A stretch of 7,276 nucleotides of DNA, from NCBI GenBank assembly GCA_023419055.1, contig JAEZYO010000545.1:1-7276 (forward strand), given 5' to 3'. The notes beneath the pieces were generated by a model that made no database searches, was not told the origin of the DNA, and worked only from the letters and a program-made list of their open reading frames with translations. Positions 964 through 7,193 of this stretch are shown here, piece by piece. The DNA comes from Pseudomonadota bacterium. Lineage in GTDB: Bacteria; Myxococcota; Polyangia; Polyangiales; Polyangiaceae. Numbering within the stretch: the first letter of the stretch is position 1; every line of letters starts with the position of its first letter. The position numbers and the translations under genes are program-made.

Positions 964-3354
964 TCAGGTGCCTTCGTAGCGCAGCACGACGAGCGTCACG
1001 TCGTCGTGCTGGCGCTCCATGAAATCGGTGACGTCGTCGAGTAACCCGAGGCAGATCTCGCCGGCAGGGAGATCGGTGCGTCGTTCGAGGCCGCTCATCA
1101 AGCGCTCGAGGCCGTACTGCTCGCCAGCGGCGTTCGTGCCCTCGATCGCGCCGTCGCTGTAGAGCACGAGCAGGTCTCCCTTCGTGAGCACGAGCTCCGA
1201 ATCGACGATGCCCTCGCCGATCTCGGCGGTCGCGCCGACCCACGTGCCGGGCGTCGGGATGAGCTCGATCTTCTGCTTCTGCGCTCGCCAGACGAGGAGC
1301 TCTTCGTGCGCTCCGGCGTACGTGATCTTGCCGGAAGCTTCGTAGCGGAGCAGGGTGAGCGTCGCGTGTTCGTCGCGCTTCAGGCGCGTGCGAACGCTCG
1401 AGTAGAGCACCGCGTTCAGCGTCTTCAGGATGTCGCTCGGTCGAGCCTCCGGGCTCTTCTCGACCAAGCTCGCGACCATGCTCCGGATCATCAGCATCAC
1501 GAGCCCGGTGGTGAGGCCGTGCCCCGCGACGTCGCCGATCCCGAACCAAGCGCCGCTCGCCGTCTCGAGCACGTCGTAGTAGTCGCCGCCGACCTCCGAC
1601 GCGGGCAGCATCACGGCCGCGATTTCCATGCCTTGCGCCCGCGGGTCACGGGGCAAAATCGAGGTCTGGATGGCCGCCGCGATCTGGAGCTCGCGCTCGA
1701 GCCGCTGCCGGTCCGCCGCCTCGCGCCGTCGCTCTTCCTCGAGCAGCTGCTCGTAGAGACGGATGCTCTCGAGGCTCGAGCTGATGGATTGGCGCACGAG
1801 CGTGTACACGAGCCCCGGCGGGGGACCTATCTCGAGCAGCAAGAAGCCGAAGACGCGATCCTTCAGGCCCAGCGTCTCGACCATGAAGTGACGGCGCCCG
1901 AGCTCTTCCGCGAACGCTTCTGGCAGGATGTCGAGCGTCGAGAAGGCGCCGTGGTCGGCCTCCTCCGCCTGCCCGTTGCGGTGCGCGAGGAGCACGCGCG
2001 AGCAGCCGAGCACGCGCACGTCCGCGTCCTCGAAGAGCACGATGTACGCCGACGGGAAGTGGAAATTGGCGAGGTGCGAGCTCACGACCCGCGCGAGCGC
2101 CTCCCGGCTGGGCGCGCCCGTGGTGTGCTCTCCGAAGGCCGCGAGCTCGACGGCCATGTGCTCCATCGCGACGCGCTGCGCGCCCTGCTCGAGCCCCTTC
2201 AGGTGACCGAGCCAGGAGCCCGCGCTCCGCCAGAGCTCGAGCAGGTCCTTTTCTCGCGCGTCCAGGCGGCGCAGCAGCATGTTGATGGCGCTGCCCCACT
2301 GGGTGGAGCCGCCGCCGAAATGTTCGCGCGCCGAGTCGAGCGCGTCGACGAGCTCGCCGCCGCCGCGCATCGAGGCCCGCGTGAGCTCTTCGGACAGGGA
2401 CTCGGCCCACTCCTCCGCTTTGCGCGCGCGCGGTGCGGCGATGCGCGTGAGCTCGAGCTCGAACTCGCCTCGAGGGGGACGTGACGGGCGCGGGCCCGGC
2501 GAGAGCGTCGGGGTGCGCGCCTCGCCGTAGTACAAGCAGCCGCAAGAGCGGCGCACCACGAGATCGCACGGGAGGAGCGACACCGGCTGGACGGGGCGGC
2601 CCTCCTTCTGCGCGACCAGGAGCTCGATCGCGCGGTCGGCTTGCGCCTGGAGATCCTGGCGGAGCGTCGTGAGCGGTGGGTTCGTGAGCTCGGCCTCGTC
2701 GACGTTGTCGAAGCCCGTGACCGACACGTCGCGCGGCACGCGCACGCGCCCTGCGGCGAGGGCGTCCATGGCGCCGCGCGCCATCTGATCGTTGGCCGCG
2801 ACCAGCGCGTCGAACTCGAGGCCGAAGCGCAGCCAGTCGCGCACCAGCTGTCGAGCGCTGTCGGACTCGAAATCGCCGTAGCCGACGAGCTCCTCTTCGA
2901 GCGAGAGGCCGCATTCGTCGAGCGCGTTGCGAAATGCCTGCTCGCGGGACAGCGCTTCGTCGTGCCACGTCGGCCCTCCGACGTAGGCGAAGCGGCGGCG
3001 GCCGTGCACGTGGTGCAGGTGGTTCACCGCGCGCCACATCGCGCCGTTGTTGTCCGCCTGAATCAACGGCGCGTCACCCCAGGCGTGACCTATCGCGACC
3101 TTGGGCACGCCGGGCAGTCTCTCCCCGAGCATCAGCTCGGGCCGGTTCCGAGACTCACCGAGCACGCACAGCACGATCGCGTCGATGCGACGCGAGCTGA
3201 GCAGGTCCCAGATCCTGACGCCGTGATCGAAGCACAGGGCGTTCCCGCCGACCCGCTCCACGGCGCGCAGAAGCGCCGCGAGCAGCAGCCTGGCGTAGGC
3301 GCCGGCGATCCAGTCGACGGAGATCGCAATGGTGAGGCCGCGGTTCGACGCCAT
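964..3354 (-). CDS. LacI-type ligand sensor fused to SpoIIE/RsbU-type PP2C (PPM) phosphatase
   Basis: This is a soluble 796-residue protein with no signal peptide or membrane segment. Residues 7-273 match the effector-binding half of LacI/GalR regulators (periplasmic-binding-protein fold): AANDQMARGAMDAL at 187-199, VPRDVSVTGFDN at 206-217, PPLTTLRQ at 226-233, ending in RRSCGC at 268-273. The N-terminal helix-turn-helix of true LacI proteins is absent. Residues 295-410 are mostly helical. About 415-535 look like a GAF-type domain, and 535-562 are a charged coiled coil. Residues 575-794 are a SpoIIE phosphatase (PF07228 family). They keep GGDYYD (Asp591, Asp594), GDVAGHG (Asp608), YSDG (Asp734) and HDDVT (Asp785), so the metal site looks intact. 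The IQTSILP helix at 562-568 is the usual RsbU-type switch region. The family dephosphorylates phosphoserine in STAS anti-anti-sigma factors. I infer that binding of a sugar-like ligand sets phosphatase activity. ATG at 3354 is chosen because the ligand domain begins directly after it. There is no good Shine-Dalgarno site. The reading frame stays open upstream to 4341, but that part is antisense to the helicase. No anti-sigma or STAS partner lies nearby. Confidence 0.93.
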   Translation of the reverse strand: MASNRGLTIAISVDWIAGAYARLLLAALLRAVERVGGNALCFDHGVRIWDLLSSRRIDAIVLCVLGESRNRPELMLGERLPGVPKVAIGHAWGDAPLIQADNNGAMWRAVNHLHHVHGRRRFAYVGGPTWHDEALSREQAFRNALDECGLSLEEELVGYGDFESDSARQLVRDWLRFGLEFDALVAANDQMARGAMDALAAGRVRVPRDVSVTGFDNVDEAELTNPPLTTLRQDLQAQADRAIELLVAQKEGRPVQPVSLLPCDLVVRRSCGCLYYGEARTPTLSPGPRPSRPPRGEFELELTRIAAPRARKAEEWAESLSEELTRASMRGGGELVDALDSAREHFGGGSTQWGSAINMLLRRLDAREKDLLELWRSAGSWLGHLKGLEQGAQRVAMEHMAVELAAFGEHTTGAPSREALARVVSSHLANFHFPSAYIVLFEDADVRVLGCSRVLLAHRNGQAEEADHGAFSTLDILPEAFAEELGRRHFMVETLGLKDRVFGFLLLEIGPPPGLVYTLVRQSISSSLESIRLYEQLLEEERRREAADRQRLERELQIAAAIQTSILPRDPRAQGMEIAAVMLPASEVGGDYYDVLETASGAWFGIGDVAGHGLTTGLVMLMIRSMVASLVEKSPEARPSDILKTLNAVLYSSVRTRLKRDEHATLTLLRYEASGKITYAGAHEELLVWRAQKQKIELIPTPGTWVGATAEIGEGIVDSELVLTKGDLLVLYSDGAIEGTNAAGEQYGLERLMSGLERRTDLPAGEICLGLLDDVTDFMERQHDDVTLVVLRYEGT

Positions 3355-3465
3355 TCCGGAGGTAGAAACGAAGATTCTAACCTTTTCGGCAGCCGATCGG
3401 GGGACTCGCGTCGGCCCTCCGTCTGGGTGTGGCAGCCCCCGCCGCTTCGCGGCAAGCTCGCGATC
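3355..3465. promoter_or_regulatory. Divergent intergenic region between phosphatase and helicase genes
   Basis: This 111-bp gap, or 72 bp if the helicase starts at GTG 3427, must hold the start signals for both divergent genes. Its left part (about 3363-3387) is clearly more A/T-rich than the surrounding genes, as expected for a promoter core. An 8-bp palindrome CCGATCGG lies at 3393-3400, too short to call an operator. I see no convincing sigma-70 -35 box on either strand and no sigma-54 -24/-12 pair. Confidence 0.55.
3374..3379 (-). promoter_or_regulatory. Possible -10 element for the phosphatase gene
   Basis: Read on the minus strand this hexamer is TAGAAT, five of six matches to TATAAT, ending 19 nt before the ATG at 3354. 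It sits in the A/T-rich patch of the divergent gap. No matching -35 hexamer is found at 16-18 bp spacing. If it is used, the leader would be only about a dozen nucleotides, which would fit the missing Shine-Dalgarno site. This is weak evidence from one hexamer. Confidence 0.22.
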
Positions 3466-5793
3466 GTGCCGCCCTCCGACGCGACCCGCAGCCTGGCGCT
3501 TCTCGGGCCGACCAACACGGGCAAGACCCACAAGGCGGTCGAGCGTCTCCTCGAGCACGAAAACGGGATGATCGGGCTCCCGCTTCGTCTGCTGGCACGA
3601 GAAATCTACGATCGCGTGAGCGCTCGGGTGGGACAAGAGCGGGTCGCGCTCGTCACCGGCGAGGAGAAGCGGGTCCCCAAGCGTCCCGACTATTGGGTGT
3701 GCACGACCGAGGCCATGCCGCTCGCGGTGGAGGTCGATTTTCTGGCCGTCGACGAGGTGCAGCTCGCCACGCACGACGAGCGCGGCCACGTCTTCACCGA
3801 TCGTTTGTTGCACGCGCGGGGACGGCGCGAGACCTGGTTCCTGGGCGCCGGCACGATGCGGCAGCTGCTCTCGCACCTCGTCCCGGCGGCGCGTCAAGAA
3901 GAGCACCCGCGACTGTCGCACCTTTCCTTCGCGGGCTCGAGCAAGCTGTCTCGTTTGAAGCCGCGGAGCGCCGTGGTCGCCTTTTCCGTGAGCGAGCTCT
4001 ACGCGCTCGCGGGCAGGCTCCGCGCGCTCCGGGGAGGGGCGGCGGTCGTGCTCGGCGCGCTCTCCCCGCGCGCCCGGAACGCGCAGGTCGCGATGTTCCA
4101 GGCGGGCGAGGTGGACTACTTGGTCGCGACCGACGCGATCGGCATGGGCCTGAATCTCGACGTCGACCACGTGGCGTTCGCCTCGCTCCGGAAGTTCGAC
4201 GGTCGCGGCACGCGCCACCTCGAGGACGCGGAGCTCGCTCAGATCGCGGGGCGCGCGGGCCGCTACCTGCGCGACGGCACGTTCGGGACCGTCGCGCCGC
4301 TCGAGCTCGACGCGAAGCTCGCGCAGCGGGTCGAGCAGCATCGGTTCGAAGCGGTGCGCCGAGTGCGCTTCCGCAACTCGGACCTCGATTTCTCTTCACC
4401 CGTCAGGTTGCTCGAGGCTCTGAGCGCGCCGCCTCCGGCGCCGTACCTGGCCGGCGTGCCGGACGCCGAGGATCTGCTCGCGCTGCAGGCGCTCTTGCGC
4501 GATCGAGCCGTCCTCGAGCGGGCGCAGCGCGAGGACCTCCTGCGCCTTCTCTGGGACGTGTGCCAGATCCCGGACTTTCGCCGCATCCTCTTCGAAGTCC
4601 ATGTCTCGCTCTTGCGCGAGATCTACGTGGCGTTGACGGAAGGGCCGCTGACGGACGACTTCATGGCGCCGCGCGTGACCGAGCTCGATCGTTGCGACGG
4701 CGACGTGCACGCGCTCGTGGCGCGCATGGCGCAGCTCAGGACCTGGGCGTTCGTCGCCAACCAGGGCGCCTGGGTGCGCTCTGCGAACCACTTCCAGGAG
4801 CGTCTCCGAGCGCTCGAGGATCGACTGAGCGACGCGCTGCACGGCGCGCTCGTCGCGAGCTTCGTCGAGCGGCGGAGCCGTCGGGTTCGCGCTCCTTCGT
4901 CAGGTGCTCGGCGGAGCGCCGGGGCGAGGCCCGAGCCGATCGAGGTGGACCGCTCGCACCCGTTCGCTGCGCTCTCGGCGTTGCGCGATCGCCTCGTGGA
5001 TCCCGGCGGTGAACCCGCGCCCTCCGCGGGCGACGAGCTGCTCGAGCGCTTGACGGACGCTCCGCACGAAGCCTTCGAGCTCGATCGGCGCGGCAACGTT
5101 CGCGCAGAAGGGGCGGAGCTCGGGCGCTTGATCCGCGGCGCCTCGGTGGCGGCGCCCGAGGTGCGGATGACGGCGCTCGACGACGTCGGGGCGGGGCTTC
5201 GCTCGCGGCTCGCGCGCCGAGTTCTCGCGTATGCGCGCGACGTCCCGGGCCGGTTGCTCGCCGAGCTCCGAGACCTCTCGAGCTCCGATGACGCGAACCT
5301 CCGCGCCATCGCGTATCAGCTCCGGCAGGGTCTCGGCAGCGCTCCTCGCTCGGAGCTCGACGCGATGCTCTCCGCGCTCGATGACGGCGCGAAAGAGAAG
5401 CTTCTGGCGCACGCGATCCGTGTCGGCAGGGTCGCGGTCTATTTGCCGGCCTTGCTCAAACCGGGGCCCCTCGAGCTGCGAGCGATTTTGCTACGCGCTC
5501 ACGAGCCGAGCCTCGAGCTGCCCGACGACCTCGGGCGCCCCTCGTATCCGGCGGGGCGCGTGCCGAAGGTGACGTGGCTCGCGCTGGGCTACGTGAAGCT
5601 CGGCCCTCGCGCGGCTCGAGTCGACCTCGTGGAGCGCGCGGCGGAGGCGCTACTTCGTGGCGAGCCCGACCCTCAAGCGCTGCGCTTTCTGGGGGTTCAG
5701 CGCGCCGATAGGGGGCGCGTCGCCCGGGCGCTCCGGGCGCTCCTCGCGGAATCGCTCGAGGCTACGGGTGCGCCGCGCGCGCCCCGTGCTTAG
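3466..5793 (+). CDS. SUV3-like ATP-dependent RNA helicase (superfamily 2)
   Basis: This 775-residue protein should unwind RNA in the cytoplasm using ATP. The helicase core fills residues 8-300: Walker A GPTNTGKT at 14-21, LVTGEEK at 62-68, the DEVQ box at 96-99 (DEIQ in SUV3 relatives), GAGT at 127-130, GALSPRARNAQVAMFQ at 197-212, ATDAIGMGLN at 221-230 and QIAGRAGR at 259-266. Runs such as GMIGLPLRLLAREIYDR and HVAFASLRKFDGR are close, from memory, to alphaproteobacterial SUV3-like helicases. Residues 330-470, with LLWDVCQIPDFR at 361-372, continue that similarity. Residues about 471-490 form an Arg/Ser/Ala linker, and 495-775 are a mainly helical C-terminal region I cannot name. SUV3 works with RNA-degrading enzymes in mitochondria; the bacterial role is less clear. 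GTG 3466 is chosen because family members begin shortly before Walker A. GTG 3427 would add 13 residues and is also possible; neither has a clear Shine-Dalgarno site. The frame is open back to 2641, but that part is antisense to the phosphatase gene. Confidence 0.93.
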   Translation: MPPSDATRSLALLGPTNTGKTHKAVERLLEHENGMIGLPLRLLAREIYDRVSARVGQERVALVTGEEKRVPKRPDYWVCTTEAMPLAVEVDFLAVDEVQLATHDERGHVFTDRLLHARGRRETWFLGAGTMRQLLSHLVPAARQEEHPRLSHLSFAGSSKLSRLKPRSAVVAFSVSELYALAGRLRALRGGAAVVLGALSPRARNAQVAMFQAGEVDYLVATDAIGMGLNLDVDHVAFASLRKFDGRGTRHLEDAELAQIAGRAGRYLRDGTFGTVAPLELDAKLAQRVEQHRFEAVRRVRFRNSDLDFSSPVRLLEALSAPPPAPYLAGVPDAEDLLALQALLRDRAVLERAQREDLLRLLWDVCQIPDFRRILFEVHVSLLREIYVALTEGPLTDDFMAPRVTELDRCDGDVHALVARMAQLRTWAFVANQGAWVRSANHFQERLRALEDRLSDALHGALVASFVERRSRRVRAPSSGARRSAGARPEPIEVDRSHPFAALSALRDRLVDPGGEPAPSAGDELLERLTDAPHEAFELDRRGNVRAEGAELGRLIRGASVAAPEVRMTALDDVGAGLRSRLARRVLAYARDVPGRLLAELRDLSSSDDANLRAIAYQLRQGLGSAPRSELDAMLSALDDGAKEKLLAHAIRVGRVAVYLPALLKPGPLELRAILLRAHEPSLELPDDLGRPSYPAGRVPKVTWLALGYVKLGPRAARVDLVERAAEALLRGEPDPQALRFLGVQRADRGRVARALRALLAESLEATGAPRAPRA

Positions 5794-5813
5794 GGTGTGA
5801 ACGACACTGGCCG

Positions 5814-5819
5814 AGGAGG
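5814..5819 (+). promoter_or_regulatory. Strong ribosome binding site of the lysozyme-inhibitor-like gene
   Basis: AGGAGG, within GAGGAGGG at 5813-5820, lies 6 nt before ATG 5826. It is a full match to the Shine-Dalgarno core and fixes the start. It is much better than any site before the other genes here, so the exported protein may be translated efficiently. Confidence 0.85.
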
Positions 5820-5825
5820 GCTCAG

Positions 5826-7193
5826 ATGTGGGAGCGAAAGGGTCGCTGGGGAGCGTACGCGTGGCGCATTGGTGCAGGGGCGCTTTCGCTGTCGACCGTC
5901 CTTTGTCTTACGGACGTGGCCGTCGCACAATCACCCCCGACCGAGGTGGTCCAGCTCTCACCCGGCGCGGCGGCCCTCACGCAGAGCGGACTCCTCGATT
6001 CGCGCACCCGGGACGACCAGGCGTACGTCTTCCGAGGAACGGCGGGGCAGGTGCTCGAAATCGAGCTTCGCTCGAGCAACCCCGACGTCTCCTTCTCCGT
6101 GACCCCTGTCGGGCCAGGATCGGCCCTCGTGAACTCGTCGATCACGGGCGAAAACCACTGGACGGGGAGGCTGCCGGCGACCGGCGACTACACCGTGCGG
6201 GTTTATCTGCAGCGCTCGGCCTCGCGCCGCGGGGTCACGGCGACCTACTGGCTCTCGCTCGCGATCCGCGCCGTGACTCCGCCCGCGGCGAGCAGGCTCG
6301 GTGGTACGAGCTGGCAGCTCGTACGCGTCCAATCCGCGCCTGATCGTGTGCTCGTCCTGCGCGCCGGGCAGCGAGAGAAGTACACGCTCACCTTCGGCTC
6401 CGACGGGCGCATCGCCCTCCGCGCCGATTGCAATCGCGCTCAGGGCACTTGGATGTCGGCCGGTGGAAATCAGCTGAGCCTCAGCGCGCTCAGCAGCACG
6501 CGAGCCGCTTGCGCCGAGGGCTCTCTGGACGATCGCTTTCTCCACGACATGCCGTACGTGCGCTCCTACTCGCAGCGCAACGGTCGACTCTACTTGTCGC
6601 TGATGACGGACGGCGGGATCTACGAGTTCGAGCCGCTCTCGAGCGCCGCGCCGGAGGCGGCCAGCCCGTCTTTCGACTGCGACCGCGCGAGGTCGGCCGT
6701 GGAACGCAGCATCTGCGCCGATCCACGCCTCGCCGCCCGAGACAACCAGCTCGCGAACGTCTACGGGGAATCCGTGCGCCGCAGCGGCGGGCACGCCGAA
6801 TCCTGGCTTTCGACGAGCCAGCAGGCGTTCATCCGGCAGCGCAACTCCTGCGAACGGAGCGACGACAGGCTCGCTTGCCTCGAGCGCGTCTACGACGAGC
6901 GCATCGCCGAGGTCCAGGTCAAGGGAGGGCTCGTCACCTCGCGCGGCCCCGTCACGTTCGCGTGCGCGGACTCGCGCGGCACTCCGGATCGGGTCTCCGC
7001 GACGTTTCACCAGTCAGAGCCGCCCTCGGTCACGCTAGAGCGAGGGTCCGATCGGGTGTTCGCGGTCGCGGGCCCGAGCGGGAGCGGCGTACGCTACGAA
7101 GCTCCCAGCGTGGTGTTCTGGGAGAAAGGGCAGGAGGCGCAGGTGAGCTTCTGGGGCGCCGAAATGCGCTGCGTGCCGCGCTATCGTAAGTGA
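5826..7193 (+). CDS. Secreted four-domain protein: PliG/PPC-like, META (HslJ), LprI (DUF1311) and MliC domains
   Basis: This 455-residue exported protein probably inhibits lysozymes in the periplasm or outside the cell. A Sec signal peptide (residues 1-34, basic N-region, cut at AVA|QS) is followed by four domains. (1) Residues 40-150: a beta domain with YVFRGTAGQ at 67-75 and RLPATGDYTVRV at 115-126, resembling PPC domains and the g-type lysozyme inhibitor PliG. (2) Residues 157-271: a META/HslJ domain, SWQLVRV to YEFEPL, with ADCNRAQGTW at 200-209. (3) Residues 282-364: LprI/DUF1311, with FDCDRARSAVERSIC at 283-297, QQAFIRQRNSC at 332-342 and CLERVYDERI at 351-360. (4) Residues 370-450: MliC, with FAC at 378-380, GSGVRY at 419-424, FWEKGQEAQV at 431-440 and MRC at 447-449. 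The eight mature cysteines come as one pair in META (202, 229), four in LprI (285, 297, 342, 351) and one pair in MliC (380, 449), fitting four disulfides. There is no lipobox, so it should be soluble rather than membrane-anchored like classical MliC. It lies 32 nt after the helicase gene and may share its transcript. The META, LprI and MliC calls are firm; the first domain is tentative. Confidence 0.93.
   Translation: MWERKGRWGAYAWRIGAGALSLSTVLCLTDVAVAQSPPTEVVQLSPGAAALTQSGLLDSRTRDDQAYVFRGTAGQVLEIELRSSNPDVSFSVTPVGPGSALVNSSITGENHWTGRLPATGDYTVRVYLQRSASRRGVTATYWLSLAIRAVTPPAASRLGGTSWQLVRVQSAPDRVLVLRAGQREKYTLTFGSDGRIALRADCNRAQGTWMSAGGNQLSLSALSSTRAACAEGSLDDRFLHDMPYVRSYSQRNGRLYLSLMTDGGIYEFEPLSSAAPEAASPSFDCDRARSAVERSICADPRLAARDNQLANVYGESVRRSGGHAESWLSTSQQAFIRQRNSCERSDDRLACLERVYDERIAEVQVKGGLVTSRGPVTFACADSRGTPDRVSATFHQSEPPSVTLERGSDRVFAVAGPSGSGVRYEAPSVVFWEKGQEAQVSFWGAEMRCVPRYRK

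Follow-up and report, generated by a model that had tools for sequence, protein, structure and literature searches.

The four-domain gene

The window analysed here, positions 1-7,276 of contig JAEZYO010000545.1 (assembly GCA_023419055.1, Polyangiaceae), carries a gene whose 455-residue product combines a putative Sec signal peptide with four successive domains, namely a PliG-like domain, a META/HslJ domain, an LprI/DUF1311 domain and an MliC domain (Table 1). A first-pass annotation of this DNA, made from the letters alone, had proposed a single Sec-type polypeptide with several domains of lysozyme-inhibitor type, and this is borne out by an open reading frame (ORF) that spans exactly positions 5826-7193 of the forward strand and in which all four domains are supported. 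The guanine plus cytosine (GC) content of its three codon positions (0.656/0.566/0.836, in a window of 69% GC) follows the pattern expected of a real high-GC gene. Judged by eye, the putative signal has a charged N-terminal end followed by a hydrophobic stretch, with AVAQ near residue 34 and no visible lipobox.

Table 1. Positions of the four-domain gene, its parts and the adjoining helicase gene in the window
Feature	Position	Strand	Basis
Four-domain (PliG-META-LprI-MliC) gene	5826..7193	+	455-residue ORF, ATG start
Ribosome-binding-site-like GAGGAGG, six bases 5' of the ATG	5813..5819	+	Read from sequence
Putative Sec signal peptide, residues 1-34, no lipobox	5826..5927	+	By eye; low-confidence model helix 9-21
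PliG-like domain, residues 41-148	5946..6269	+	Sequence and profile matches to PliG
R130 to R134, aligned with E. coli PliG R115 and R119	6213..6227	+	Profile alignment
META/HslJ domain, residues 156-271, with C202 and C229	6291..6638	+	Pfam, fold
LprI/DUF1311 domain, residues 281-366, with C285, C297, C342 and C351	6666..6923	+	Pfam PF07007, family hidden Markov model, AlphaFold2
MliC domain, residues 372-452, with C380 and C449	6939..7181	+	Pfam, fold, motifs
S420, equivalent of P. aeruginosa MliC S89, motif SGSGVRY	7083..7085	+	Motif alignment
K434, equivalent of P. aeruginosa MliC K103, motif FWEKG	7125..7127	+	Motif alignment
Suv3-type RNA helicase gene	3427..5793	+	Pfam; stop 32 bases before the inhibitor-like gene

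Assignment of the four domains

The MliC and LprI matches on which the earlier proposal depended are both significant in Pfam, the former clearly (PF09864, residues 386-444, E 4.6e-11, 43 bits against a cut-off of 22) and the latter marginally (PF07007, residues 285-362, E 1.4e-4, 22.6 bits against 22). By fold comparison the MliC part is an eight-stranded barrel like those of solved MliC/PliC proteins. A phmmer search of the PDB with the MliC piece alone was headed by a nanobody match due to chance (E 0.008), the PliC/MliC rows lying at E 0.21-0.45. The motif region, SGSGVRYEAPSVVFWEKG, holds S420 and K434, which are separated by 14 residues exactly as are residues 89 and 103 of P. aeruginosa MliC. 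S89 and K103 are named in the literature as needed for c-type inhibition, and the equivalent double change S83A/K103A is reported to abolish inhibition by gonococcal SliC (PMC6033465). The motifs deviate in that SxSGAxY has V for A and the second reads VVFWEKG rather than YxxxTKG.

For the first domain, the first-pass annotation had gone no further than a resemblance to PliG, which is now firmer than was claimed. In a PDB phmmer search with the whole protein, residues 42-147 match the solved Aeromonas PliG 4dzg (E 2.2e-8), three E. coli/Salmonella PliG rows being weak (E 0.05-0.28), and the PliG part matches a profile of seven proteobacterial PliG-type sequences with a probability of 99.1 (E 1.1e-18). 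BLASTP gave E 1e-15 to 8e-13 against six proteobacterial PliG-type proteins and 6e-6 against E. coli PliG, these being values for a panel of 11 hand-chosen sequences and not database values. Twelve plasmid records had matched the PliG part (H13, H15-H25), seven of which were fetched and six used; L002 (H13) was left out because the frame cut for it held the match incompletely. The fold, compared with solved structures, is that of PliG, and no Pfam model matched this domain except for a meaningless Cas3 row (14 against a cut-off of 27). The four rows returned by PHROGs, all unnamed families, include phrog_2177 on residues 42-147 (E 4.3e-8) and phrog_4675 on residues 273-364 (E 3e-14).

Among the plasmid proteins themselves, a standalone PliG-type protein of Paracoccus marcusii (L006:1423-1821, 37% identity over 108 residues to the PliG part) is recorded as a 'DNA breaking-rejoining protein', which looks like a misannotation. 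Three alphaproteobacterial PliG-type proteins (L003:1833-2822, L008:1420-2400 and L009 at about 1441-2211) share, by eye, a similar C-terminal part of some 80 residues; in L003 and L008 this part has no Pfam match and is preceded by a bacterial SH3 domain.

PPC was rejected as the identity of the first domain. Also very improbable is a reading as an envelope or adhesion protein of general function, which would use its beta domains, the first of them PPC-like, to bind protein or glycan without inhibiting anything: PPC is unlisted in Pfam at E up to 1 (although HMMER filters drop most matches above 0.1), identity is 16% to 5sv5 against 30% to PliG, and the MliC serine/lysine pair is intact with its exact spacing.

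The LprI domain has four cysteines within the pattern SFDC...C...D...R...C...C...Y..R, all conserved in the aligned relatives. The PF07007-annotated proteins P0027, P0028, P0029 and P0031 are recovered by a hidden Markov model (HMM) of this domain made from family sequences other than these four, their best stretches scoring E 2.5e-19, 1e-20, 3e-21 and 9.2e-20, respectively. AlphaFold2 gave a confident four-helix model (predicted local distance difference test score 91.8). A fold search with this model found no solved match in the PDB at E up to 0.001; among viral models there was one at that threshold, and two named DUF1311/LprI stood at E 2.7e-3 and 8.2e-3 (query template-modelling score 0.73-0.74). 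The four assignments are thus backed by sequence, and all except LprI by fold as well.

Two observations concern LprI domains elsewhere. P0027 carries a caspase-like domain (PF00656) followed by two LprI domains in one protein, and the BFVD models Q7Y3G7 (phage RB49) and A0A2S1PGF8 (Aeromonas phage) represent phage proteins named DUF1311/LprI-like. Because T4 Spackle is described as inhibiting the T4 tail lysozyme (PMC7677548), such phage proteins might, by analogy, be lysozyme inhibitors acting in superinfection exclusion.

The META part matches Pfam META (PF03724) over residues 157-267 (E 2.6e-14, 53.6 bits against a cut-off of 24) and has an HslJ-like fold in comparison with solved structures. 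PDB phmmer searches with the META part alone and with the LprI part alone returned chance rows only. In a BLAST comparison with E. coli HslJ the META part was left unaligned, the best piece lying on residues 291-335, and the NCBIfam HslJ equivalog (NF007766) likewise scored 18.3 against 168 on residues 291-336, outside META. As the C-type lysozyme inhibitor equivalog, the only other NCBIfam row, also falls far under its cut-off (12.2 against 168), the protein is not an equivalog of either E. coli protein.

Relatives and domain architectures

The homologue search yielded 32 clusters from only 7,996 scored candidates and is therefore no census; architectures were called with family-built HMMs, and some of the input rows (P0001-P0008, P0010 and P0013) are also counted. 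The survey of domain order that the first-pass annotation had called for places the full PliG-META-LprI-MliC order in 7/32 clusters, the window's own included; in two more PliG-META is present but the remainder is lacking or out of frame. These two are P0009 and P0008, whose out-of-frame or truncated C-terminal parts reflect sequencing errors or decaying genes. The remaining architectures are META-LprI-MliC (2/32), LprI-MliC-META (1/32), MliC-META (1/32), META without the other three domains (13/32) and LprI without the other three (6/32). Since the same domains recur in other orders, their combination is recurrent rather than accidental. The MliC domain of P0026 was detected by Pfam (31.9 bits) and missed by the family HMM. 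An origin of the fusion as a chimera, or as a frame artefact, in a single assembly was rejected because seven clusters show the full order, the contigs themselves being unread.

The four domains are conserved as a unit, and within P0002-P0006 the PliG domain is the most conserved of them (87-94%, against 71-86% for the others). S420 and K434 are both kept in six of the seven four-domain proteins; in P0010, P0013 and an Azospirillum protein the MliC serine is kept and H replaces the lysine. All nine PliG-bearing proteins of the family (P0008 and P0009 included) keep R134, and eight keep R130. Their SG-x-Y turn begins with SG in four (P0004, P0006, P0007 and P0009), with TG in four (the query, P0002, P0003 and P0005) and with AG in P0008. 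Tyr47 and Arg115 of E. coli PliG, the latter aligned with R130, are reported in the PliG crystal papers to be functionally important; Tyr47 itself is present in 4/7 aligned proteobacterial PliG-type sequences, E. coli included. On these alignments the PliG part keeps only part of the conserved residues of its family.

A tree of 30 META domains groups the nine PliG-bearing proteins (support 91/94) and leaves the placement of the other META-LprI-MliC proteins unsettled. A search with the PliG region alone recovered this family only (seven rows, without P0007 and P0008). Genome-contig scans, made with the protein and with alignment A1, and one viral-contig scan with A1 found no relatives. No phage record matched P0010, which was the query there in place of the window's protein, and 13 of 72,556 plasmid records matched P0010 at E up to 1e-5, all over its LprI-MliC part only. 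The LprI-MliC tandem has been described before and occurs as a module in several genera of proteobacteria. As far as this non-exhaustive search goes, the forms with META appear in few proteins, and the addition of PliG appears in one family.

Genomic context and lineage

Upstream of the Suv3-type helicase gene, the window holds a minus-strand gene (967-3363) in which Pfam recognises a sensor domain of the LacI periplasmic-binding type joined to a SpoIIE phosphatase and, at 35-958 on the plus strand, a gene for a charged protein rich in A, E and K, without Pfam match and possibly exported as judged by eye. Scanning for promoters and terminators gave no promoter-like site and one minus-strand terminator-like site against 0.5 expected, and PADLOC returned nothing. 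A single inverted repeat lies within the four-domain gene itself (6229-6282).

An immunity protein is as a rule specific for a single toxin whose gene lies beside its own, and the window contains no recognised effector gene beside these three neighbours. This tells against a role in immunity or against competitors, in which the protein would guard the periplasm from wall-cutting effectors injected by rivals, even if such a role has precedents: LprI/DUF1311 proteins that adjoin wall-cutting effectors of type VI secretion systems are proposed to be immunity proteins (PMC12135965, PMC8867033), and Tsi3 is cited as an immunity protein of PliG type (PMC5507604). We regard this role as unlikely.

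The helicase search gave 7,999 matches, 120 of which were listed. Thirteen of these 120 carry organism names (ten Polyangiaceae, two Myxococcales and one Pseudomonadota), the closest at 70% identity, and it is from these names, an indirect basis, that a bacteriolytic soil predator is a plausible producer; the bacterium is probably related to predatory myxobacteria. Among the listed helicase clusters of at least 80% identity, six of seven equal an inhibitor relative in the size of the longest contig (40106 for P0001, 7070 for P0002, 7787 for P0004, 11172 for P0006, 32459 for P0007 and 24324 for the broken P0009), which takes in five of the seven four-domain clusters and one broken relative. Such size matches are an indirect sign of a shared contig, the contigs being unread, and the P0001 pair is probably the window's own record. 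The seventh cluster, P0037 (11513), has no size-matched inhibitor relative. One further size match (2970; helicase P0072, at most 72% identity, and the LprI-only P0031, from another source) was put down to chance, the contig being too short for both genes. For listed helicases of at most 72% identity, P0039 with its 52-kb contig being one, the 7,996 candidates scored included no PliG-bearing relative, which is no proof of absence. Pairing at no less than 80% helicase identity suggests that the four-domain gene is a lineage-specific accessory gene, and its apparent restriction to one lineage weakly favours a defensive accessory role over housekeeping.

Proposed function

We propose that the product is an exported inhibitor of lysozyme-fold enzymes that cut the sugar backbone of the cell wall, best used in guarding the wall of the producer itself, and we put the probability of this reading at about 55%. 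The protein, rich in predicted disulfides, would be exported and would bind and block such enzymes, the C-terminal MliC domain reaching into the catalytic site of c-type-like lysozymes with its SGSGVRY loop and Lys434 and the N-terminal PliG-like domain blocking goose-type-like (GH23) lysozymes in the same manner. The GH23 family also takes in bacterial lytic transglycosylases. LprI would contribute a further contact with wall enzymes of bacteria, a role suggested for LprI immunity proteins, with META serving as a spacer or additional binding domain. The likeliest benefit would be protection of the producer's wall from foreign or self-released muramidases.

A bolder version has one exported protein neutralising c-type and goose-type/GH23 enzymes simultaneously by means of distinct sites in its MliC and PliG domains, LprI and META being additional modules for inhibition or targeting and the whole a shuffled multi-domain shield that evolved in an uncultured Polyangiaceae lineage. 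We hold this full version to be tentative and rather doubtful, while the joint action on several lysozymes, as the first-pass annotation had imagined it, may serve as a good hypothesis drawn from sequence.

Several points weigh against an inhibitor of this kind. The META domain is described as of function unknown, with no known inhibitory role, in PMC3270026, and the LprI-only protein ScwA had no role in lysozyme resistance according to PMC7933661. The position of E. coli Tyr47 is R62 here, and Tyr47 is absent from all nine family rows. Pfam stays below its curated cut-offs for LprI and MliC of P0007 and for LprI of P0012 and P0013. In P0007, the most distant of the four-domain relatives, moreover, PliG is the least conserved domain (44%, with META at 56, LprI at 60 and MliC at 54), D and R stand at the MliC serine and lysine positions, and one of the two PliG arginines (R130) is lost too. 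Inhibition of c-type lysozymes is therefore not what keeps the four-domain architecture in P0007, a protein in which the architecture is kept without these residues and which demonstrates that the domains can drift apart in function.

The case of P0007 also speaks for the main rival, a protein that restrains the lytic transglycosylases and autolysins of its producer, with inhibition of foreign lysozyme as a side effect. Ivy proteins of P. aeruginosa are reported to inhibit a lytic transglycosylase, the idea has been published that lysozyme inhibitors act chiefly on enzymes of the producing cell (PMC10746161, PMC5955474), and the LprI-type ScwA modulates MltD, with no lysozyme-resistance role in that account (PMC7933661). 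Conversely, size-paired inhibitor relatives occur only with helicases of at least 80% identity among the candidates scored, which suggests an accessory gene of one lineage. An own-enzyme brake seems to us possible, if improbable, next to an inhibitor guarding the wall from outside or self-released enzymes.

Comparison with known systems

Most described Gram-negative lysozyme inhibitors are small, with 100-150 residues (PMC7933661), and they have mostly been defined against a single lysozyme type, whereas relatives of c-type and g-type inhibitors stand here in one molecule. In the literature searched, outside which most subscription journals lie, no paper on a META domain together with MliC was found, no fusion of PliG-META-LprI-MliC type was apparent by title, and the matches for lysozyme inhibitors in myxobacteria and for HslJ with lysozyme inhibitors were off topic by title.

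Among the closest known proteins, judged by domain content, is M. tuberculosis LprI, a lipoprotein that likewise pairs LprI with MliC in one exported chain and in which the MliC domain alone is stated to suffice for lysozyme resistance (PMC7933661); in the Polyangiaceae protein the pair follows PliG and META, and a lipobox is not apparent. Similar LprI-MliC proteins also occur in Azospirillum, Cupriavidus, Skermanella and Aeromonas (40.7% identity over 177 residues to the Azospirillum protein), but the Azospirillum protein (204 residues) consists of LprI and MliC only, and none of the 13 plasmid matches covers the META domain of P0010. With PliG (E. coli pliG, Aeromonas 4dzg) the first domain shares the fold, the SG-type turn (TGDY here) and the arginines R130/R134, whereas E. 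coli PliG is a protein of 133 residues and here Tyr47 is not kept and three further domains are fused on. PliG-SH3 proteins of Rhodobacter, Leisingera and Comamonas similarly have an N-terminal PliG-type domain in a multi-domain protein, followed by a bacterial SH3 domain in place of META-LprI-MliC. The MliC/PliC family agrees in fold, in the SxSGxxY and WxKG motifs and in the serine/lysine spacing of P. aeruginosa MliC, and differs in that the domain is here part of a larger polypeptide, far under the equivalog cut-off, with the key residues missing in P0007. The META/HslJ family (PF03724) agrees in fold and Pfam match, the domain lying here between two inhibitor-type domains.

To judge from its sequence, this protein may guard the cell wall against wall-cutting enzymes of more than one type. 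A single molecule of this kind would let one ask whether such inhibitors are aimed at foreign lysozyme or at the wall enzymes of the cell itself and of its rivals, and the recurrent, reordered fusions of META, LprI and MliC provide a lead to the purpose of the META domain.
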